DNA of 60,000 bases from Bolinopsis microptera (taxonomy: Eukaryota > Ctenophora > Tentaculata > Lobata > Bolinopsidae): positions 6,755,246-6,815,245 of the forward strand of contig NC_087081.1 in the NCBI RefSeq assembly GCF_026151205.1, written 5' to 3'. Below, piece after piece: positions 1 to 57,923 of the stretch (positions are counted from its first letter, which is position 1; each line of letters begins with the position of its first letter). The notes below the pieces were generated by a model. The model was not told where the DNA came from. It did no database searches and saw only the letters and a program-made list of their open reading frames with translations. A program made the position numbers and the translations under genes.

Positions 1-430
1 CCACGATTCAGGCTACCCTGTTCATTATTAGCCGAAAATATTTTTTCGGTTTTTCGAAGTCCGCACCTACCCATCGATACACAATTCTGGACTCGAGGTT
101 TCCCCCGGTAATGTGATCTTGGAAGGCAGGCCTCCCCTTTGCAACACGAGCTCGGAAGCGGGAGCTCTCGATACAGGAGGTACGTCTCGAGAACGACTCG
201 GACCGAAAAACTTCTAAGTCAAAATTTTTTCTGAAAACCACTTTTTTCCACGATTCAGGCTACCCTGTTCATTATTAGCCGAAAATATTTTTTTGATTTT
301 TTTTTGGTAAAAAAAACTGAAATCCGGCAAAAATCCGGCAAATTTATTTCCAGCCGGAGCCGGAACCGGAACCGGATTTTGAAGCCGGATATCCGGCCGG
401 AACCCGATTCAGCCGGATTTCCGGTCGGTT
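1..430. repeat. Direct repeat and CCGGA-rich simple sequence
   Basis: The first ~50 bases (starting ccacgattcaggctaccc) recur almost exactly from 248 onward, so a unit of about 247 bp is at least partly tandem. From about 325 to 430 the sequence is dominated by CCGG/CCGGA words (ccggaaccggaaccgg, gccggatatccggc). This abuts the 3' end of the retroelement fragment to its right and makes the apparent Ser-Gly tail of that reading frame. No gene is seen. Confidence 0.6.
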
Positions 431-1955
431 CCTAGGCTCAATCCTCACATCCTTGGTCACCAGCCTAAGGTATTCAGCAACAGAGTCTCTCACGTTGTTA
501 TGACGGTAGTTCACATACCCCCCTCTCTTACAGTTGAGGATATGATTGTGATCATTCTTGGCTCCACAATCGCAGAATCTTGGGGTGTTGGGGATGTCCC
601 AACCATACCGGAGATGAACAGCATCTCTGAAGTCTTGCTTGCTGTAAGCATACCCTAGCTGTTGAATGGGGAGACATGTTAGCCAAGCTCCTGACCCATG
701 CTCTTGTACCAGCTGCAGTGACTCCCTGGTATTCTCATCCACTTCACTCATTATCTCAGCAAGCTCCTTCTTCAAGCGTAATTCTTTAACTAACTTGAGG
801 CAATCTACTCTGCCCTTTATCTTAATTTTATCCAACTTCATCAGGAATGTCTCCTGGTGATAGATAAGGTCAACCAGCTCCTCTGTTATCTTGAGTGACG
901 TCTGGTATTCCTTCTCCGCGATCTCTACTGGATTAACAATACCAAGCCCCCCCTAATCTTACAGGTAGCGCAAACATTCTCCTGTGCAGATCAGACACAT
1001 TCCTACCAATAATTGCAGGGATGAACTTTTCTCTTATACACTTCTCCAATGGGATGAAGAGGTCTTTAGTGTCTTGGATGGTACGCATCACAAAGGTCCA
1101 CCGATGACATAGGGCTTTGGTATACCCTGATAGGGCTGCCTGAGGTTCATCGAGGGCGATATCTGACAACTCTTCTACATCCTTCACCCATTTCTCTACT
1201 TTCTTTTTTACATATGTCTCTCTAGCCTCCTCTCCACCTATCACTGCTCCCAGATGACGCTCCCCATCACATGTGATCTCTATACCAGTCTCTCCAAATA
1301 AAAACGTGGCTGCTGGTAGTAGCGATTTTTCTTTTAGGATAAGAATAGTCTTCACTGCTTTAGGGAAGTAGCCTAACTTAGGACCGTTCACACTGAGTAA
1401 ATCCCACCACAGCCGGAGTTTCTTCAGGGTACCTGCTGCTGCAGAGTCATCTGCATACCACGCTTGCATCAATTCTCCTAATTTTGTCACGCTGGCCAGG
1501 ATGTTGATAAGAGGACCAATACCGATAGCATACTCTGCCATTGCTGCCACATCCCCTTGCGTTGCCCCTTCATCAGAGTAAATTATCTCACACGAATATG
1601 TGTCGTTGACAATGAGTTTGGCTGATTTCTGATAGGTGTTTTTCAGGTATTGGTGAAACGGAGGACATAGCTGCCTGATGTTGTGAATAGCTGCTTTGCG
1701 ATTAAGCCTGTTAAACGCATTATCAGCATCAACAAGAAGCACTGCCTCTGTCTTAGGATCTTCCCATGTCCTCTTAACTGCTCTGATGGATGCCTCAATG
1801 CCTGACTATAGCCCAGCACATGACTGAAGAGGTCCTGCAGCCTCTTGTATATCATCCTTAATTACCCCAATAACCACCTTGCCAACAATACGCCGAAGAA
1901 CCTCTCCTACCCCCACCGGCCGTACACCAGGATTACCTCTCTTATCGTCACCCTT
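425..1955 (-). mobile_element. Broken non-LTR retroelement: reverse transcriptase with zinc-knuckle C-terminus
   Basis: Read on the minus strand from about 1955 downward. The palm domain shows a motif like GVGEVLRRI, then LLVDADNAFNRLNR (motif A), EGATQGDVAAMAEYA (motif B) and QAWYADDSAAAG (motif C, catalytic YADD). A C-terminal part follows with GAWLTCLP, a C-x-C...H...C knuckle and RHNNVRD. The frame is disrupted near 1800-1850, where a stop or frameshift separates the CAG stretch from the next block, and again near 840-930, so it cannot encode a full protein. The C-terminal architecture resembles early-branching LINEs with a restriction-like endonuclease; that assignment is family knowledge and not proven here. 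A second copy of the C-terminal part lies at 6298-7277. The 5' part is missing. Confidence 0.8.
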
Positions 1956-12269: not shown

Positions 12270-13510
12270 TTTGTCTTTACCTCCTTAATTCAATGTAACA
12301 TGGCTTTTAAGAATCGCAAAAGTCTTGGTCCATCCATATTAATAATAATATTGCAGCTGCATGATCATGGGCATTAACTTAGTTTCATTTTGTTCCCGCC
12401 TAATGTTGATATTAAAATATGATTTTGTAAAAACTTTCCTGTTCAAGATTCAGGTAGGTTTTCTTGTAATGATTTGTATAAAGGCATTGCGAATGTTGAC
12501 CAATAGAATGGAACAACATATTTTATTCAACTACAGATCATTAATATCAGTATTATTTCAGGATGGTTACTATAAACATACTCAACTTTGTAGTTGCACT
12601 TGCGCTTTTGACGGACTTGTATTCTTCCAATGAAATCAGTAAGGACCTATCGAATTTTTATTTACGAATTCTTTCAAATTTTTTAGCTACATCAAAAATA
12701 TGATCTCCGACACGATCTCTTTCAGTTTTCCCATTATTCGGCACGAACTCCCCAGTATAATATAGCAAGATCTCTCACTCCAATATCTGACATCATATAT
12801 CTTAGTTTTGATCAAATCTTATGTGTTCCATAGAATTTTCTAGTGTTTTAAATCTCAAATTTGGGTCATATAGATTATAGTACGTGTAGTTTGTCGCTGT
12901 TATACCTTCCTTACTACCTGGAGATATTTTCCCGTGGAACAAATGGAAGGAAAATTCCAACTCTAGTTTAAAAAACAGATAGGAAATTATCAAATCAAAT
13001 GATAGTGACACAAAAATCATTGCAAGAACATCATTGCAAGAAAATTACTACAAACTTTTAGAAATCATATCTTTGAAAATCTTGAACCTGGAAAAATCGT
13101 CAAAGTACGAGGTCCAAGATTTTCAAAATCGAATACAAATTTTTTAAAAGGCCTAGGCCTATCTCAAAATTCTGTTCAATTAGAATCTTCGCAATGGTCC
13201 TTAGAACATATCCTGAAAGTTTCAGGGTGATTACTGTAGAAGAAGATAAATTTTTAGACTCGATTTTCGGTACGAGCGAATGAAAATCGCTCGCGCAATA
13301 CAATTATCTATGATCGCTAGGAACAATATTTTTCCATATGATCAAAAGCAGCAGATAGATATCACACCACTTTTTTAAAAACATTTATAAAATCAATTTC
13401 GAGAGGAATTTCAAAAAGAATTTAACTTTAAAACTTAGAACTGTTCATGTTATAGAGTTCTTGACGTACGGGCCACGGGGGTGCTTGTTCCTATACGGTC
13501 TAACTATCTC
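12270..13510. other. AT-rich stretch without recognisable gene
   Basis: Short frames occur on both strands, but none has a motif, membrane pattern or splice context that I can support. The upstream exons of the kringle-7TM gene (signal peptide, any further ectodomain) may lie in or upstream of this stretch but were not found. Confidence 0.4.
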
Positions 13511-13890: not shown

Positions 13891-16057
13891 AAGAGTGCAA
13901 AGAAGCTAAAGATATTCCCGGGAATAACTACCGGGGTACAGTGAATACTACGATATCAGGTTATTCATTAATCCAGTTTTCTTTGTGATTTTATTTATAT
14001 TTTTCTAGTAGGTGAAACGACAGTTACTACCATAATTGATCTAACCTTACTATACGACATCCTAAATTAAGTTCATAATATAATAGTGACTAATAGCTTA
14101 ATTATAGCAATTATTTGCTAAATTGTAGAAACTAATCAGTTAATTATAGCAACTAATTAGTTAATCATAGCAACTAATCATCAATCACATCAGGTCTAAC
14201 TTGTCAAAAATGGGACGAAAAAACACCGAATAACCACGATGTAAATCACAAAGAGTAAGTTGCTGCGCCATATTACTCAGTATTTTCAGAAAAGATAACA
14301 TATTGCTATAAATAACTTAACACGACGTTGCGATACAAATATAATACTTATTCTTTTTATTTTCAGATATCCAGATTCTGGATTGGGAGGCGGCCATAAT
14401 TACTGTCGAGGTCCTACAAAGTTAGTACATTTTATTACACTCCAAATTCAAGATCAAATTTTCGATGGCCAGACTTATTACGGATAATATAATCTTACTT
14501 ATGATTCGAAAGTTTCTCTTTGTGTGTATGTTTGACCGTCAACGTGCAAATTCGTTGTGGAATTGGAAGTTTCATACAGCATAGTAACGACATTGTTATC
14601 GGTTTTATTGTCATACTATTACTACGTTGTGTGGAGCCTTTTCCATCTACATCGGCTGTATCCAATTCGGTTGGGAGGGATAATTTTGATGCGGTAAAAT
14701 TGAGTATCAAAGATTAAGAATACTATTATCTTCCTCCCTATGACCAAGGGCCTTTTATTTACATTATAAAGTTAAAAACATGTTTTATGCGTCCTGTGAC
14801 CAGGGGTGTAGGAATGATTTTCTTTTTATAATGTAGTCAGCCTGAATTTCAAAAATTTCATGTCAATCGTTGAGAAAAGTTTAATATGCAGACTGCAGGC
14901 AAACATTCAGGTTATGGCAGGATGGCTTTATATCCAAATGCTATTGGCAAAATACTAGCAATAGCGTCAGTTTGCTGAAGGCAAAATCTTTTCAGCATTT
15001 TGCTCCTGCAAAAGGCCTAGAAGTAGAAGCAATTTGGCAATAGAGATCATTTAAAAACACAGTTTCAAGACCGACAAAATTTCAGCAAATTTGCTTTAAG
15101 GAATGAATTTTAGCAATGAGAAATGTAAACTGCACTGCAGATAACTTAGCTTTTAAAGTGTGAAAATTTAGATATTTTCTGAACGAAGAGGCCAAAAATT
15201 TGGCCCTTTTTCGCCCCTTAGCTGCGAATGGCCAAACTTCACTGCAGGTAACTTAGCTGCAAGTGGTAAAACTACAAAGTTATCTGAGAAATATCTTTTA
15301 AAATGTAAAAATTTTATTATTTTCTGAACAAAAGGGCCGGATAAGGCAAAAAAGTTGGCCCCTTCGCTGCAGATGGTCTAACTGCATAACAGAAATCTTA
15401 ACTGCAGATGATAAAACTACACAGTTATGTGAGAAATATCTTTAAAAGTGTCAAAAATTTATTATTTTCTGAGCAAAGGGGCCAAATGAGGCAAAAAAGT
15501 TGGCCCCTTTTCGCCCCTTGCCCAGATTTCATGGGGGGCGGTCAAGTGAAACTTGATTTTGATATAGCATTTTATCAACAAACTAAGGCCCGTGATCAAA
15601 CTTTTGATCAATTTTTGGCTCAATTATGCCAAATCACATTCACATGCCCAAATCCAAGCTTTGGGGTGCTATACTAAATCAGCTTTCAATATTTTTGCAT
15701 GAAATTTTGGCGGCCAAATTAAAAACAAATTGATTATGTCCTTTCACGCAACGTCCGGTCAAATAACGTCGGATAAGGTATACAGTATAGGACCAAACAC
15801 GCAAGCTTGGTTTTGGGCATGTTAATGTGGTTTGTCATAATTGAGCCAAAAATGGATCCCTCAAAAGTTTGGTCACGGGCACTAATTTGTAGGTCAACTA
15901 CTATCTCAACTCAACTGATTCCCCGCCCCCCCCCCCCCCCCCCCCTCCTTTAACCACCATCTCCTCAGATCTACTTTTTTCTTTCCTGACGGGCCATGGT
16001 GCTATAACGGGGAGGGAAAAGAACCGCCGTACGAATACTGCGACATTCCTACTTGCG
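13891..16057 (+). CDS. Kringle domain exons of the receptor gene
   Basis: Four exons. Exon 1 (13891-13959) codes ECKEAKDIPGNNYRGTVNTT; exon 2 (14194-14254) TCQKWDEKTPNNHDVN; exon 3 (14367-14420) YPDSGLGGGHNYCRGPT; exon 4 (15969-16057) FPDGPWCYNGEG and YEYCDIPTC. Together they hold the six kringle cysteines in canonical order and the hallmarks YRGT, C-Q-x-W, HNYCR, PWCY and YEYC. The domain is flanked by phase-1 introns on both sides, as mobile kringle modules are. The usual acidic Asp-x-Asp of lysine-binding kringles is not present; an FFFPDGP stretch replaces it, so lysine binding is doubtful. The intron between exons 3 and 4 is enlarged by a MITE and a tandem repeat. Confidence 0.85.
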
Positions 16058-19000
16058 GTTTCTAATTTATTGCTTTTCGAAGTTAACATAATATATATTA
16101 GGACTATGTCTCAAAAATCCTTTTTCTCTGAAAAATAAAGATGAATTGACAGGATGAATGGCCTGAAAGTATAATGAAAAGTAAAGCAGTGTTTTTAGAT
16201 ATCGCATGATAAATTTTAAGCCCTCTGAGTCTTTCGGAGAATAAAATAACAACAAGTGAAATATTCCTAATTTTCAGAGAGATACTACCGATTAATATAA
16301 CGAGTAACTGAAACAATCCTAATTTTTAAAGTGATACTACCAATTATTATTAACAAGTAACTGAAATATTCCTACTTTTCAGAGGAATCATATTCCAATT
16401 ATGGCCACAGCTACAGGGGGGGGGGGGGGGGTAGCGGGTCCGAGGTCGACAAAATATTTGACGCTCGTGCGCCACCCCTAGCCCCCCAGAGCTAGAGCGC
16501 CTTCTTTGTCGTAAAATTGAGGTCAACTATTGCCTATTTAATCAGTTAACCTCGCAAATAACCGGTTCTTAACATTTTGTTGCTCTCATCACAAGTTAAA
16601 CTTATCCATGGGTATTAGGTATCAATTGGCCATCCAACGTGAACAGAACTATTATATGCCCTTTATTCGTTGGACAATTGAGGTTAACATATTTTCTCAA
16701 AAATCAATTTTTTGGCTCTCCTGAAACCACTTTTAAAACCTATCTACTTTTAGAGCTTTTATCCGTTTTATCTCAAATTTGGAACATATGTTCCTCAGAT
16801 AGCCACAATCAGTTATAATGCAGCGATTTTTAAAATTTTGCTCCTAACTCTTTTTATAAGGTTAACTGTCGAAAAATTTTGTGACGCACACTCATGGTTA
16901 ACCTCATATCTCAGCTTTGGAGCAAAAAATCAAAAATCGCTACATGTTATACTATTGGACAAAACCTTGACAAACACTGTTGCCAAGTTACAATGTCCCA
17001 TGTCCTAAACTGTAAAAGAAGATAGATTTTAAACAAAATTGCAATTGCATATTAGAAGCAAAAAATCAAAAATCGCTACATGTTATACTATTGGACAAAA
17101 CCTTGACAAACACTGTTGCCAAGTTACAATGTCCCATGTCCTAAACTGTAAAAGAAGATAGATTTTAAACAAAATTGCAATTGCATATTAGAAGTTTTCA
17201 TTTACAATAAAATTACAGGTAAACCTCAAAATTTGACGCGCGATACCTACAAATGGGAAACTTTTTTTAGTGGGAACAAAAGCATTCGAAAATTTTAATC
17301 GAGCTTTACAACATATCTCAAAATTTACCTTGGACACCCCCCCCCCTGTGGCCTTAACTGAAATATTACTACTTTTCAGGGAAATAATATCAAGTAACTA
17401 AAATATTTCTACTTTTCAGAGGAATCATACTTCCAAAAACGGGCAATTAAGTCTACCTCGGCCAAACCGACAACCTGGAGTATAGCAACGACTTATATGC
17501 CAACAGGCCGCACAGAGCAGTCTGGAGGCCAACTTAGTCGAAGCGTTACCCGCCATCTTTCATATACCACACATCGTCCAACCTTTTCACCCTCCACACC
17601 AGCTCCGACAACTCAGCCGCGCGGGAAAGAAGGTTTTGAAAAAAAGCGTATGGGAGTAGGTACAGAAATTTTCTTTATGGTATTCCACATATTTAACCTG
17701 GTCCTGACAGCTATTGTAAACCCAGTCTTCATCCTCATCGTGGTAACCAGGGTAAGTAATAAGAAAAATAATTTTACAATTATTTGTCTGTAGGTCAATC
17801 AATAAACAAAATAACAAGGTGCGCATCACATTAACACATCATTAGTCATTAATGATAACTTTAGTAGCCTAGTGCAGTAGCTGAGTATGCACTTCGATGC
17901 GCACAATTTCGTTAGGTAATTTTGCACCAAAACCATCTAGATGTAGTTTTGCAATTTGTTTAGTCCTACTATACTAGCAGTTTGGTCTTTTTCTTGCCAA
18001 TTCTTGCACTAAAATTATTGCCTGAATTTGGTTAACATCACGTTTTTGCTCTTTTCGCTTGGGTTAATTTCTAACTGCCTCCCTTAATAATTCTCTCTAC
18101 ATCACCCCTTTTTTATCTGTGTCCGATGTTCTTAAAGTTACATGATCGGGCACGGTGTAAAGTCTATATCTTACCACTATCCCATATCTGGTCAATGTAT
18201 TTACAAGTAAACCAAAAGAAAATTTCAATTGTAGGTCATCCAGCTTCCTTCACATGCTCATTGACTCAACTTTAAGGTCGAAACCTGTATACTTTAAAAT
18301 ATTTAGCCACACTTTCTGGCAAGAATATTATTGGGAATCTTTTTTTGTGGTCACCATCCAATAAAGTATCTTTTCTCGTACGGGTAGCCAAAATGACTGA
18401 CTTTTGTGGTTGTTTTAAGCTAAAATCCATTCCTAGCTCAAGTTACCAAAATACAGTGCCATTTTTCTGAACCAAAAAATAGTTGTTTGTCAAACAAAGA
18501 ACTGTAGACCTTATGCTGCTTCATAACTTGTAGATGAATGTGGCTTTTGTAGTTATTTTTAACTAAAAGTCAAGTCTCTAGGACGTTCAGGGACCGAGAT
18601 CCAAATTTTCAACATTGCGGATGCGCCTGAGGGGTATTTACAAATTACATCGAAGTTCATACTCAACTACACTCTGCTTCCAAAGTACATACGATAATTG
18701 AAGAAGGGGGATAAGTTAGCATTATCAAATTTCGCTATATTTTTTATGAACACTTAAAAAAGAGGTCAACATGACCGTTATTTTTACCTAAAACAACCGC
18801 TTTATTCATGTAACAGTGAGGAAAGTAAATATAATTATACTTCAGATAAATCTAAGGAAGGATCCCTCCGTGATCCCCCTCTTGGTAGCATGCATTGTAG
18901 CATTAGTTAATTTGGGGACTAACTGGGGGTTTTACATGGGAATCAAGAAGGGCTTTACCTGGTTGTATAAAAACAACAGAGACCTTTGTTGGTTCACGGA

Positions 19001-20789
19001 TGCTGTTTCGGATAAGATCTCCATGTTTCAAGTTGTGTGTTATGCAATCGTTACTCTAGAGGTTTGTGGTTTATTGCCTTGTGTTATTCAATTGTTACTC
19101 TAGAGGTTTTTGCTCGCCCAAAATCACGCGATTTTGATTTTTACGGCTTTAAAACCAAACGAGAAAGTCGTACCTAAGCTTTTTGGGGGCCAAACATCAT
19201 TACACATACGTTGGGTCTTATAACTCGCCATGCTTCATATTTGAGACCTGTAAATTTGCATATATTATAGTATAATACCTCAACCTGCAACTATTCATTA
19301 GTAGGGGCACTCAGCGACTGAGAAATAAGCCCAAACGTATAACTTTATGTAGCGACTTCACCCTCCCACCGCACCCAACCCCTGTATATGTAGTAAAACT
19401 CGTGTACCTTTCAACGACGTGTTCCTAACACACGTGTTTAACAGGCAGCCTATGCGATGCAATACCCCATGAATTACAAAAGATCGAGCTGGAGAACATT
19501 CTGGACTATCATAGGAGCCCTCTTTGTGGACCTCTTGCTGCTGGCAGCCCAGATATATTTCTACTATTTCTGGACAAATACACCTGATTTAATCACCAGT
19601 TTTATAGAGAAACTAGGTGGGGAGTCATATGTAAGTAACACATTCTCCTTTATTAATTATAAACTCAATAGATAAATTTATTAATTGAGTACAGAGTAAA
19701 TTTTATTGACTATTGAGCGTGTCAACGGCCTTTTCCGGTTTTAACGACCTAATGAGGTTACAGTTGAACCCCTAATATTTGTTCAGGGTATTTTTCGGTA
19801 TAAAGATAATGTCCTGAGAAGAGAGAAAACATTTGGTTGGCATTTCTACTTCATGCGTTGTGAAAGATATCATATGCCTGGATCGTGGGACTATTTGCTG
19901 AATATTCTGTTGGGATTGGTACCCTGCCTCTGGGGTCTTGTTTGCATGACTTACACCCTCGCCCAAGCATTCAACCCTCGTCGCAAGCGAAGGAACTTTA
20001 TTGCTGCAGTTTCAGGCAAGGAAAATCTTCTAAATTAAAACTTGAATCACGCCTTAAATCTTTTAACAGTAGCTGATATTGCTATCAACTACCTGATTTG
20101 AATAATATTACATTTCGAAAGTTTGATTAATTGAATCGTCTGAAACAGAAATTATGGCCACCAGCGATTTACTGGTTAATTCATTGATGGATCTGTTAAT
20201 ACATTTATCAGTCATTTATCTGTTAACTTATCTGATAACTTATCATTACTAATAAATCAATTGTTTGGCAGGCAAATACAACTTCACGGTAGAAAATCTG
20301 GAAGATGACGAAAACCGAGCAAAAAGTGTTGCTTTGATTACTATGGTCTGTTCAATAGTCCCGGCTCTTATGTACATTATATACTTCATGATTTATCTAA
20401 ACCCTGATTCTGAGGACACGTTGCTATACATTTTCGGTGTGGATGGGTTTTATTGGTTTCAGGAAGTGGTGAGTAATTTAATTTTTTTTAAAGCAAACAG
20501 GACCGGGGTTGACTAATTGGCACGAGTTTAAAAGCTAATTTTACGACATGTCCAGGATAACCTGGATTTTTAATATTTTTAATATATTACGATTTTAGTG
20601 GATTAATAATTTATTAATCAATTGTTCTATAACGTAATGAATTAAACTCAGCTCAAGCGTTCATGCCTTCTGACCTCCTGGCTTCCGGCTCTTATATCCC
20701 TATTCCTTAACCCGAGTATTGCAAGAGCGATGATGGGACTGTTAAGATTCAGCAGAAAGAAGGAAGTGGAGAAAACTGGGTCAGTGTAG
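13891..20789 (+). CDS. Kringle-domain 7TM receptor-like gene (10 exons; 5' end not found)
   Basis: Proposed exons: 13891-13959, 14194-14254, 14367-14420, 15969-16057, 17420-17751, 18846-19061, 19445-19630, 19787-20015, 20272-20468 and 20652-20789 (stop TAG 20787-20789). All nine junctions agree in codon phase and leave one uninterrupted frame of about 522 residues. Order: one kringle (six Cys), ~75-residue Ser/Thr/Pro-rich stalk, seven membrane helices, ~20-residue basic tail ending KTGSV. The predicted product is a plasma-membrane receptor with an extracellular kringle, a fold that usually binds proteins or peptides. What I see are the motifs and phase; the joining of kringle and 7TM into one transcript is inference. 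The first exon starts in phase 1, as kringle modules usually do, so at least one exon with a signal peptide must lie upstream. Alternative: two neighbouring genes, with the start Met at 17497. Confidence 0.7.
14421..15520. repeat. Intron with ~150-bp tandem repeat (15135-15520)
   Basis: Within the kringle intron, a unit of roughly 150 bp (containing aaaactacaaagttatctga, tattattttctgaac and aaaaagttggcccct) is repeated about two and a half times between 15135 and 15520. The left part 14421-15130 has a plus-strand open frame at 14520-14717 with no recognisable motif and no need for it in the gene model. Confidence 0.6.
15587..15880. mobile_element. 294-bp MITE with 5-bp TSD in kringle intron
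   Basis: The ends are ggcccgtgatcaaacttttg and the inverse caaaagtttggtcacgggc. The inverted similarity runs about 80 bp into the element (ttggctcaattatg, catgcccaaa, caagctt). The word actaa flanks both sides (15582-15586 and 15881-15885). No coding capacity. Confidence 0.7.
16265..17419. repeat. Array of splice-acceptor-like repeats ending at the stalk exon
   Basis: A ~50-60-bp unit (gtaactgaaatattcctacttttcag followed by a short AT-rich stretch) occurs about five times: AG ends near 16277, 16382, 17379 and 17419, plus a degenerate copy near 16326. The last copy provides the acceptor used for the stalk exon at 17420. Each copy has a pyrimidine-rich tract plus AG. A separate 0.95-kb element (16403-17353) split the array after the third copy. 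Confidence 0.65.
16403..17353. mobile_element. 0.95-kb element with GGCCACAG/poly-G inverted ends
   Basis: The left end ggccacagctacag followed by a G-run (about 16417-16430) is mirrored by a C-run (about 17337-17346) and ctgtggcc at the right end. Inside, 136 bp (16921-17056) is repeated in tandem at 17057-17192 with no difference that I can see. No transposase is recognised. It interrupts the acceptor-like array upstream of the stalk exon. Target-site duplication is unclear. Confidence 0.6.
17420..20789 (+). CDS. Stalk and seven-transmembrane part of the receptor gene
   Basis: Exon 17420-17751: basic start ESYFQKRAIK, Ser/Thr/Pro-rich stalk, then helix 1 (FNLVLTAIVNPVFILIVVTR, with the conserved helix-1 Asn). 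Exon 18846-19061: loop LRKDPS, helix 2, LCWF with the helix-3 Cys, helix 3 ending VTLE. Exon 19445-19630: AAYAMQYPMNYKRS, helix 4 (WRTFWTIIGALFVDLLLL). Exon 19787-20015: second extracellular loop with a Cys (FMRCERY), helix 5, basic third loop (NPRRKRRN). Exon 20272-20468: helix 6 (MVCSIVPALMYIIYF). Exon 20652-20789: helix 7 (SWLPALISLFLNPSIARAMM) and tail. The layout is class A GPCR-like, but DRY is EAA, no Trp is at the CWxP site, and NPxxY is NPSIA. G-protein coupling is therefore uncertain. Confidence 0.75.
20016..20271 (+). other. Predicted GC-AG intron
   Basis: The only junction that keeps the helix 5-helix 6 frame is TCAG|GCAAGG ... TTGGCAG|GCAAAT. The donor starts GC but otherwise matches the extended consensus of known GC-AG introns. 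Reading through instead gives a stop 24 nt later (after GKENLLN), which would truncate the receptor after helix 5. This could be a natural retained-intron isoform. Confidence 0.65.
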
Positions 20790-21014: not shown

Positions 21015-22882
21015 CTACCTACCTATTGAACCTATTGAGAGGTTTAGAAGTAGGCATCTTCACGGCCATCGCGCGATCTGCGGACCACCTCCTTGACTGC
21101 ACCAGTCTATTATCGAGTTAGAGTTTTCTGCACTGTATCCAGGAGTAGGGGGCTTGTCTGGAAGGGTGTCTAGGAAGTTTCCAAGAGATGTCTTGAAGCT
21201 TGTCAAAGTCCTTTGAGTATTGACAATTTTGGGGAGAACATTACAGAGTCTTCCAGCTCTCACTGCGAATGAGTGGTCGTAGGTGGAGCGTGCAGCAACT
21301 GATGCTTTTTTTGTGAGAGAAGGGAGTATAACTTTTACTCCCAGTCTGGCATTCTCTCTGAACTGTACATCAAGGTCATTTGGACATATACCCTGGAGAA
21401 CTTTCCACAGATGTATGATGGTGTAGCGTTCTCGGCGTCTTGGCAGTGATGTAAGTTTCAGTTCCTTCAGTCTATTCCAATAATCGGTGTCTTTGAGCCC
21501 TCGAATCCGTCTAGTGAACTGGCGTTGTATGCTCTCGATAGACTGGATATCATAGATCTTGTTTGGATTCCAAAGCGAGCAGCAGTACTCCACTCTGGAC
21601 CTTATCAGGGATTTGTAGAGCTGGAGCATAACAGGTGGTGTCCTGTCTTTGAATACTCCAAGAACCCAAGATGCCATCTGACGTGCCTTGGCCTTGTCAA
21701 CCATGATATTGATATGTGGAGTCCAGGAGTAATCATCGGACATGTTGACTACTAGGTCACGCTCTTATGGGCTTCTTTCTATGACTGATCCATTTGGAGT
21801 GGTGTAGTTTGTGATGTCACTCATAAATGGCAGCTCCTCTGAAAGTGATTTAGAGGCCGGTGTTCTATAGCAAACAAGTCCAAACTTGTTTTCGTGCAGT
21901 TTCATGTTTTTGTCCTTGGACCAACGTATGATTTTGTTTAGATCTTCTTGAAGAAGATTGCAGTCGTTTAAAGTTGATATTTTTCTGCCTATTCGGGTGT
22001 CATCGGCAAAGCTGCTAAGTTTGGAATCTTTCACGTACTGATCTAGATCGTTGACATAAACTTAAAGAAGAAAGAGGATTGGACCAAGTACAGTCCCCTG
22101 CGGTACTCCACTGATAACCGGCATTGGCCTAGGATTTTTTCCATTAACAATGACCATTTGAGTCCTATCAAGGAGGAATTGTTCAATCCATTTGTACAGA
22201 TTACCTTGTATTCCATACGACTAACCTTTTTGAGAAGTAGGGAATGATCTACCTTGTCGAAGGCTTTAGCGTAATCAAGGTATATCACGTCTGTTTCGGA
22301 GCTGTCTCAGTCTAGGTAGTTGTTTAGGATGTAATCCATGTGTTGTAATAACTGTGTAAGACAGCTTCTACCTTTCCGGAAACCGTGTTGTTTCTTAGAA
22401 AATATGTGATTCGATTCCAAGTGCTCTACCATGTTCTTTCTTAGTACCCTCTCAAACACTTTTATCGTATCCGGGAAGTTAACGAGATAGGTCTATAATT
22501 TCCCGGGTCTGTTTTGTTTCCTTTTTAAACACTGGCATGATATATTGTTCCTTATAGACTGAAGGAACTTGACTATTTCTGAAGGAGTTCTCCCAAATGA
22601 TCATCAGGGCTTCTGAAAGCGGTTGTTTGCAAGCTTTCAGTATCCTCGCTGGACTGTCCCCATCAGATGTTGCTGAGTCAGCATCAATTTCATCAATAGC
22701 TGTGATGAGGTCCTCTTTACTAAAGTTGAATGATGTTAACTTTTCTGAGGGCGATTTTATATTGCTGGTTGTGTATTTTTTCTTCTCGCTGTCAGGGTCA
22801 CTAACTAACAATGAATAATTGAATCTGCTCTAATATATATCTGAACGAAGCCACCGGGTAGTCAGGTGGTCTGTAGACTGTG
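21015..22882 (-). mobile_element. 5'-truncated LINE reverse transcriptase with 14-bp TSD
   Basis: Minus-strand blocks, top to bottom: DSATSDGDSPARILKACK (22479-22811), YLDYAKAFDKVDHSLLLKK (motif A, 22043-22288), SSFADDTRIGRKI (motif C, 21765-22034) and YKSLIRSRVEYCCSLWNP to the C-terminus (21060-21743). They lie in different frames, so the element is dead. The tail is a short (AGGT)n-like run at the minus-strand 3' end. tcaaatgacaagac flanks it at 21001-21014 and 22883-22896. The FADD box and C-terminal motif fit CR1/Jockey-group LINEs. Confidence 0.85.
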
Positions 22883-31216: not shown

Positions 31217-31521
31217 TATTTTCTTTTGATATTTTAAAATTGAAATTTGACTTCATTGGTGTGTGGCAAATTCATTGGTGTGTGGCAAATTCTTTTAAAC
31301 GCGCGTAGGCTATATAGCTCGTGCGTGGTGGGCCATACAACATATTATAACAAAGAGTAATTAGAGTATTGCCAGTTATTATATAACGTGAATTGTGCAA
31401 CAAAACACTATGGATCTAGACAGGCAAAGGTCGATAAAAAACCGGGTGCGAGATGCTGGCAACTTTTCCTCTCTAAACATTTGCTGCAGAAACATCACAA
31501 AGTAACAACAAGAAACGGTGT

Positions 31522-33355
31522 GTGGCTCCCTCTGCAAGGACGGATGATACCAGTATGAAGGTGGCGGGGCAAAGCCTAAGGGACCCCCGTGGCCAGATGA
31601 GTGTTGGGAGAACACGTCATTGTAGCAGATTTATTTCTCCACAGATCACCCATGTGGACTCCGACTCTAATAAGAAACAGCCAGCGAATTATTCTAAAAC
31701 AGGTCTTACATTTGGGACATGGAATGTATTATCTCTGACAAGTAGTTCAAGTCAGTTGTTCCAGCTATCAGAGAATATCTCTGAGTATAAGTTGGACTTG
31801 CTGGGTATAACTGAGACCCATATGCCTGGTACAGGATCAGAGCTACTGGATAATGGCTCCTTACTTATTTATTCAGGGAGGACGGACGGTATAAGAAGGC
31901 GAGGTGTCGGTCTTACCCTTTCAAAGAGGACTAAAAATTCATTAATTTCCTATCTACCAATATCTGACCGTTTGTTGAGTGCAAGGCTGCATAGTCAATA
32001 CCTGAACATCTCTGTTGTTGTGGCATATGCGCCAACTGAGGGGGCTTCAGATAATGATAAGGATGAATCCTACCAGCAGTTGTCAAGTGCATTCGATGAG
32101 CTACCCCGACATGATTTAAAATTATTACCTGAGGACCCCAGGCTTTAATGTTGGTAAACAACCGAATAGAGATTAGGCGGAATGACAGGCTGAGCGCGGC
32201 CCAGTAATAAAATTACTGCTCGGTGATCTTAATGCTAAGGTCACATCGGACTGCAGTTCTATGTCAGGTGTCATTGGTGGACACTCGCTTCACAGCTCAT
32301 CAAATGACAATGGTACCCGATTGTTGGACTTTTGTATTGCCCACCAACTTACCATCGGGGGCACTATGTTTCAGCAAAAGGATATACATAAAGGTACGTG
32401 GAGATCACCTGATGGTCGTACTGTAAACCAAATAGACCACATCTGTATCAGTAAAAAGTTTGGAGGCTCCTTGCTAAATGTAAAAGTTTGTAGGGGGGCT
32501 GACATTGGGTCTGATCACTATTTGGTAAGAGCACGACTGAGAATGAAGCTTATGTCAGTGAAAAAGAAGCAGGAACGTAAGCTTGAGATTCCTGCTATTG
32601 AGCATCTGCGTGATCATTCACTTGTTTCCGAATACAATATTGTTCTGAGAAACAAATTTGACTGTTTGGAACCTGAGGTTGACCTGGAATCAATGTGGGA
32701 CAACTTCAAGACAACATCAGTGCGAATGGAACAATTGACAAAGAACTTTCAGCTCGAATTCAAAAGGCCTCTGGGGCATTCTATCAGCTCAGCAGTATAT
32801 GGTACAGTCGCAACATCAAGACTCCAACGAAAATCAGGATTTACAAATCGGCTGTTCTCACTATACTGCTTTATGGAAGTGAGGTATGGAATACCACACA
32901 GACGCAGATGAAAAGATTTGAGGTGTTCCATCATAGATGTCTCAGGAGAATCCTGAAAATAAAATGGTTTTATCATGTATCTAATGCTGATGTACTTAAG
33001 CGGGCTAACATCGCCCCTGTTGATACTTTCGTACGAGCAGCTAGACTCCGATGGTTTGGCCATGTGGTGAGGATGCCAGAAGAAAGAATACCCAACTATC
33101 TTCTGCACTGGATCCCAAAGCATGGTAAAAGGTCAAGAGGTAGACCTCGGAAAAACTGGTTGTCATGTGTCCGGGAGGATGCAGCAATCTTCACAGGTGT
33201 CGATAACATCACGATAGAAGATGCAGAACAACAAGCTACAGACAGGGTTCACTGGAGAGGTCTAATACACCGGAGAAAGGAGTTACTTTGTGGTGCAGGC
33301 CACTCCAACGACTAGGAGGAGACCTTTTCAAGTAAGTACCTTTTCAAGTAAGTAA
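31522..33355 (+). mobile_element. LINE with APE endonuclease, RT core deleted
   Basis: The N-terminal part codes an AP-endonuclease-like domain: LTFGTWNVLSL, DLLGITETHMPG, VVVAYAPTEG, GDLNAKV, INQIDH-type VNQIDHICIS, and SDHYLV near the end (about 31690-32560). At about 32711 the frame jumps to SANGTIDKELSARIQ, the region after the RT active site, and continues to GRPRKNWLSCVRED and a tail of ttcaagtaagta words. All catalytic RT motifs are missing, so the copy is non-autonomous. An 83-bp MITE interrupts the endonuclease frame at 32125-32207. It is the same LINE family as 4058-6085 and 7867-8610. Confidence 0.85.
32125..32207 (+). mobile_element. 83-bp TTAC...GTAA MITE inside LINE endonuclease, 8-bp TSD
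   Basis: Ends ttacctg and cagtaa; flanked by taaaatta at 32117-32124 and 32208-32215. Excising it with one duplication restores the LINE frame exactly (...HDLKLLLGDLNAKV). It holds the near-palindrome ctgaggaccccagg and the word ggcggaatgacaggctgag shared with its siblings at 33504 and 28412. Confidence 0.9.

Positions 33356-36409: not shown

Positions 36410-57923
<21,514 letters not shown>

Follow-up and report, generated by a model that had tools for sequence, protein, structure and literature searches.

Can a kringle, a small module that binds proteins and is familiar mainly from the enzymes of blood clotting, serve as the extracellular part of a rhodopsin-like (class A) receptor? The question is raised by a locus of the ctenophore Bolinopsis microptera in the window analysed here, a stretch of 60,000 nucleotides of contig NC_087081.1 (G000:C10:6755246-6815245; the assembly holds 264.65 Mb in 232 contigs, of which C2, C3, C4, C6, C8 and C11 denote others). 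A sequence-only reading had joined ten exons at 13891..20789 of the window into one open frame that runs from a kringle through a stalk into a seven-transmembrane (7TM) bundle. A protein record exists for this product, NCBI LOC134821890 ('uncharacterized', Bolinopsis microptera, 548 aa; P0001 below), which is identical over the searched part and carries a precomputed Kringle domain. Taken as a whole, the locus is quite likely one gene that encodes a signal peptide, a kringle, a stalk and a divergent class A-like bundle and that arose via exon shuffling.

Rebuilt by eye and by script, the ten exons were in phase at 9/9 junctions and free of stops over 523 residues, which bears out the nine in-phase junctions and about 522 open residues first described. 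An additional 5' exon (12563-12638), missed in that reading, carries the start codon, joins in phase 1 and encodes the ~25 residues (MVTINILNFVVALALLTDLYSS...) with which the NCBI record starts; residues 1-26 of P0001 look like a signal peptide. When spliced, the 11 exons gave the 548-aa NCBI protein letter for letter, with 10/10 junctions in phase, and the donor after 20015 is GC instead of GT. We keep the exon numbers of the first set, 1-4 for the kringle and 5 for the stalk plus first transmembrane helix (TM1), preceded by the signal exon. Immediately 5' of the start codon, TTTCAGG (12556-12562) resembles an acceptor, either of an intron in the 5' leader or for a spliced leader, a feature known from ctenophores.

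The four small exons do encode a complete six-cysteine kringle, as had been proposed. Residues 28-116 matched Pfam PF00051 (Kringle; E 1.5e-17, 64.1 bits against a cut-off of 34.3), 6/6 kringle cysteines are present (residues 28, 52, 82, 98, 111 and 116), and PDB matches of this part were the kringles of plasminogen, HGF, prothrombin and ROR2. Phase-1 introns lie on both sides of the module; a phase 1-1 bounded module is a classic exon-shuffling unit, as reportedly set out in Patthy's work. The acidic pair (Asp55/Asp57) through which plasminogen kringles bind lysine is replaced here, with T-K-S aligned over D-N-D of the first plasminogen kringle plus a 4-residue insertion, and for this reason lysine binding by the LOC134821890 kringle is unlikely.

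The next in-phase exon opens with the Ser/Thr/Pro-rich stalk that had been read there, residues 117-190 being 42% Ser/Thr/Pro and cysteine-free. Beyond it, hydropathy gave 12 overlapping rows, which we interpreted as seven membrane stretches. Searched against 5.77 billion proteins, the 7TM part had no match other than its own NCBI record at E<=0.001 (4363 candidates; shared 5-residue words needed), and the whole protein found only itself among the 8000 candidates scored, a weak negative because kringles are common. With the kringle part, 5/7 candidates matched; apart from the gene itself these were four proteins with no 7TM family in the Pfam column. One of the four, the other Bolinopsis protein P0005, has LDLa and PF23091 beside its kringle and no 7TM bundle visible in its sequence. 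A Pfam scan of LOC134821890 gave no LRR or LDLa match, and an NCBIfam scan gave no match near a cut-off.

The bundle is better understood through paralogues in the same genome. Besides kringles elsewhere and the exons of the gene itself, the 86 matches of a genome search with the whole protein (79 of 253 candidates scored, an incomplete list) included a single place that matched the helical part, C2:12886343-12887062 (E 3.7e-8). Three exons there encode a kringle-less protein of 350 residues that is 24% identical to the kringle receptor over 342 aligned columns (pairwise blastp 1e-18; local score 213, where 2000 window-shuffles reached at most 121). A search with this C2 paralogue gave 13 matches (30/30 candidates scored), leading to three places on C8, one on C4 and a weak one on C2. 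Five members were read: the kringle receptor, C2:12886328, C8:1978026, C8:2008376 and C4:9606215, the three paralogues beyond the C2 one forming loci L041, L042 and L043, with the splice sites of all four assigned by our own reading. C8:1969395 and the weak C2:15048171 were found but left out of member comparisons. The group extends over C8:1968871-2009065, C4:9605832-9606904 and C2:12886328-12887644, and no kringle match lay within ~380 kb of the paralogues among the same 79 of 253 candidates.

The 7TM identity is 20-25% in the three compared paralogues (C2, C8a and C4). Phase-0 donors after TM1 and right after Glu 3.49 were found in 5/5 members (for L043 the acceptor between them was not located), and the Cys-to-Glu 3.49 spacing is 24 in every one. 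The motif E-[AV]-[AS]-Y....P stands in place of the DRY box in all five (Pro at 3.57 in the four paralogues read), the DRY arginine 3.50 is missing in 5/5, and the NPxxY tyrosine is present in 0/5 (NPSIA, NPVLS, DPALS, NPSVS and NSALS). Cys275 and Cys386 are invariant in the four-sequence alignment and would form the disulphide between TM3 and extracellular loop 2. The two phase-0 introns are common to the group, whereas many listed class A frames of the Bolinopsis genome are unbroken.

The bundle had been called class A-like, a description that is supported through the paralogues and not by the protein itself. The C2 paralogue matched 7tm_1 with E 4.1e-7 over model positions 2-258 of 260, at 30.2 bits, 0.3 below the cut-off of 30.5. 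A profile of four of the five members read (A4; L043, with no complete exon 1, left out) was aligned by hhalign with a profile of six Bolinopsis class A receptors (A3) at 93% and 2.4e-7 over 232 columns. A3 combines the receptor at L028 with five of eight class A loci cut out from the genome listing (L034, L036, L037, L039 and L040; L033, L035 and L038 left out); L034 and L039 were cut at the first Met, tails were trimmed by hand, and L036, L037 and L040 are close paralogues. Against the PDB, A4 found 13 sequences at E<=1, led by Kumopsin1 (4.2e-5), a spider opsin; 12/13 bear the names of class A receptors, and one chain is unnamed. Full membership is put in question by other results: the bundle alone had no 7tm_1 match, no Pfam family above noise and no matching PDB receptor; C8a and C4 had no 7tm_1 match at E<=1; and a two-sequence profile, A2, gave 0 PDB matches at E<=1. 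The clear link to A3 comes from A4 only, as A2 reached 7.5% and the 7TM part of the kringle receptor alone 0.5%. Because the bundle has no 7tm_1 match of its own, C8a and C4 are unmatched, A2 found nothing and two marker residues are missing, we write 'class A-like' or 'class A-derived' instead of 'class A member'.

Whether kringle and receptor belong to one gene turns on the junction 16057-17420, where the protein reads CDIPTCEESYFQ. The single transcript proposed earlier agrees with NCBI's model of an identical 548-aa protein; the junction itself is supported by that protein model and by the phase fit, which fall short of proof. Exon 5 has a proper acceptor, and the reading frame is open from there on. 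A fused single receptor gene is, in our judgement, likely and perhaps strongly so. Several points pull the other way. The donor after kringle exon 4 is weak (GTTTCT), exon 4 read past it gives GF-stop at once, and AATAAA occurs at 16134, 16240 and 17206 (window average 0.83 per kb); hence a secreted kringle might have its end at this point. Exon 5 contains internal Met codons at residues 143 and 194, which are possible starts. In a codon-usage test of the stalk as coding sequence the fraction of the null at or above was 0.16 and 0.34, with a small, biased training set, which favours neither reading, and a single-sequence AlphaFold2 model of P0001 was too poor for use (mean predicted local distance difference test score 41.4). 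The mature transcript is as predicted from the protein model and the DNA.

Another possibility is compatible with a single receptor gene. Both a full receptor and a soluble kringle, a possible decoy, might be made via an alternative 3' end or a duplicated acceptor before 16383. Copies of a 45-nt module in 16243-17429, 69-100% identical to a reference copy and of the acceptor-like shape ...CTACTTTTCAG/AGGAATCATA, place five acceptor-like copies before exon 5. The acceptor used for exon 5 lies in the fifth (17385). This copy shares 91% identity with the third (16348), in which the start of exon 5 recurs at 16383; were the third copy used for splicing, 37 residues and then a stop would follow. 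However, the region is rich in repeats, tandem duplication alone accounts for the copies and the soluble form is a prediction from DNA; we regard two products as possible but doubtful. A separate 136-bp tandem duplication (99-100%) lies at ~16916-17194.

It is unlikely that the NCBI model has merged two adjacent genes, one for a secreted kringle protein ending DIPTCGF and one for a receptor starting at an internal Met of exon 5, although this is the main rival to a single gene. The immediate stop beyond the exon 4 donor and the AATAAA motifs at 16134 and 16240 would suit such an arrangement. So would the paralogues, which share the E-[AV]-[AS]-Y motif and both phase-0 introns with the kringle receptor but differ from it in their short, Met-led N-termini in the TM1 exon wherever the start is readable (3/4, namely C2, C8a and C4; L043 is cut at its 5' end). 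At L028, too, a two-kringle gene and a class A gene ~4 kb apart look separate. On the other side, NCBI joins both parts with 10/10 junctions in phase, and exon 5 is open from a proper acceptor, which argues for the single fused gene.

Kringles on seven-helix receptors have been reported before: passages of PMC2246102 describe amphioxus Adhesion G protein-coupled receptors (GPCRs) with Kringle and Somatomedin B domains, a ten-gene expansion, which like LOC134821890 combine an extracellular kringle with seven helices but are assigned to the Adhesion class. That the Bolinopsis helical part is an Adhesion-type receptor of this kind is very improbable, since the presence of a kringle before a 7TM, the report of kringles in Adhesion GPCRs and an HLS triplet at stalk residue 162 stand against a cysteine-free stalk, a paralogue that matches 7tm_1, named PDB matches that are all class A and a Pfam scan at E<=10 (where most matches above ~0.1 are dropped) with no GPS, GAIN or 7tm_2. 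Because the Bolinopsis 7TM part is class A-like without a GPS/GAIN or 7tm_2 match, the pairing looks independent of the one in amphioxus. Class A receptors with modular ectodomains are known, LGR with LRR and RXFP with LDLa; they resemble LOC134821890 in having an extracellular module ahead of a rhodopsin-like bundle, whereas its module is a kringle, with no LRR or LDLa match, and its DRY arginine is missing. ROR receptor kinases are likewise membrane receptors with one kringle (ROR2 kringle match 6.9e-14) but, unlike a seven-helix receptor, they are single-pass kinases with Frizzled-like and immunoglobulin domains.

Among the matches listed in a literature search, with most subscription journals outside it, no title or abstract opening mentions a kringle on a rhodopsin-like receptor. 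In the part of PMC12716839 consulted, a domain table lists Kringle for the Adhesion class and assigns LRR and LDLa to Rhodopsin, and the E/DRY motif is described as lost in choanoflagellate rhodopsins. Excerpts of PMC11521371 on Xenoturbella give kringle and GPCR terms separately, and the main-text portion of PMC11797021 on Mnemiopsis immune genes has 0 mentions of kringles. The earlier statement that no named receptor family is known to join a kringle to a rhodopsin-like bundle agrees with the literature searched; the kringle-7TM pairing as such is known from Adhesion GPCRs (PMC2246102), and what would be new here is the class A-like bundle.

Within incomplete lists, the kringle-receptor fusion looks like a single event in the Bolinopsis genome, because the nearest kringle-class A pair was 39 kb apart (43 hand-picked representative kringle places versus 147 listed class A places) and no second receptor of the group was found in 22 kringle neighbourhoods. 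The class A listing comprised the 147 of 1683 candidates that were scored, the L028 receptor not being among them. The neighbourhoods were covered by tblastn with both 7TM queries against 23 stretches (L010-L032), where the one weak match (E 0.57) was a kringle; several kringle clusters, e.g. C11:18181965, C8:1501805 and C6:471422, were left out of this set. L028 (C3:13290600-13300500) was considered as a second fusion and rejected: a two-kringle gene with a signal-like start is followed ~4 kb downstream by a class A receptor (7tm_1 2e-9), the kringle frame stops directly after the last cysteine, and the receptor has an apparent start exon of its own. A long kringle array occupies a 1593-residue open frame at C11:16207750-16212093.

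Table 1. Features of the LOC134821890 locus, in window coordinates.
Feature	Position	Strand	Description
Signal exon	12563..12638	+	Start codon; signal-peptide-like, residues 1-26; ends in phase 1, donor GTAAGG
Kringle exon 1	13891..13959	+	Residues 26-49; Pfam kringle match
Kringle exon 2	14194..14254	+	Residues 49-69
Kringle exon 3	14367..14420	+	Residues 69-87
Kringle exon 4	15969..16057	+	Residues 87-117; phase 1 end just past the last kringle cysteine
Five-copy acceptor-like module stretch	16243..17429	+	Before exon 5; 45-nt copies at 16243, 16295, 16348, 17345 and 17385
Exon 5	17420..17751	+	Ser/Thr/Pro-rich stalk and TM1, residues 117-227
TM2 and TM3 exon	18846..19061	+	Cys275 (C3.25-like); last residue Glu299 (E3.49-like)
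DRY region and TM4 exon	19445..19630	+	Opens with AAYAMQYP
TM5 exon	19787..20015	+	Extracellular loop 2 with Cys386, TM5, basic loop 3; GC donor
TM6 exon	20272..20468	+	
Last exon	20652..20789	+	TM7 with NPSIA, basic tail, stop

Elsewhere in the window, exons of a P-type cation ATPase lie at 36525-38347 (-) (Cation_ATPase_C 4.7e-13, HAD hydrolase 1.8e-5), and a 31-bp tandem repeat of 24.8 copies with 97% matches at 43824-44592. Retroelement-like frames occur at 344-1805 (-), 21060-22829 (-) and 31477-33315 (+), where Pfam gave a weak reverse transcriptase match (933-1805), a weak endonuclease match (31477-32148) and no match at 21060-21764 and 32186-32911.

In the reading we prefer, one gene would make one membrane protein with a signal peptide, one kringle, a Ser/Thr/Pro-rich stalk of ~80 residues and a seven-helix receptor belonging to a small set of ctenophore receptors that are class A-like and divergent. 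Exon shuffling is its most likely origin, in which a receptor gene that already existed would have gained a phase-1-flanked kringle ahead of its first coding exon, the one for the N-terminus and TM1. Spaced off the membrane by a probably glycosylated stalk, the kringle may capture a protein or matrix ligand, upon which the helical bundle would signal inward. As the DRY arginine and the NPxxY tyrosine are lost in 5/5 members, the sequences point to non-standard coupling in the group, or to a scavenging or co-receptor role. We suggest, tentatively, that a class A-derived receptor whose ectodomain carries a kringle is a ctenophore invention independent of amphioxus, a non-standard switch without DRY and NPxxY for a protein or matrix ligand, possibly with its own soluble kringle decoy. 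If true, the device of a modular ectodomain would extend to a kringle on a class A-like receptor, and this in a phylum possibly sister to all other animals. The locus would then be a clear example of exons shuffled onto a receptor while relatives of the plain form persist alongside it in the genome. Lacking the two main residues of class A activation, the group would also lend itself to testing what they are needed for.

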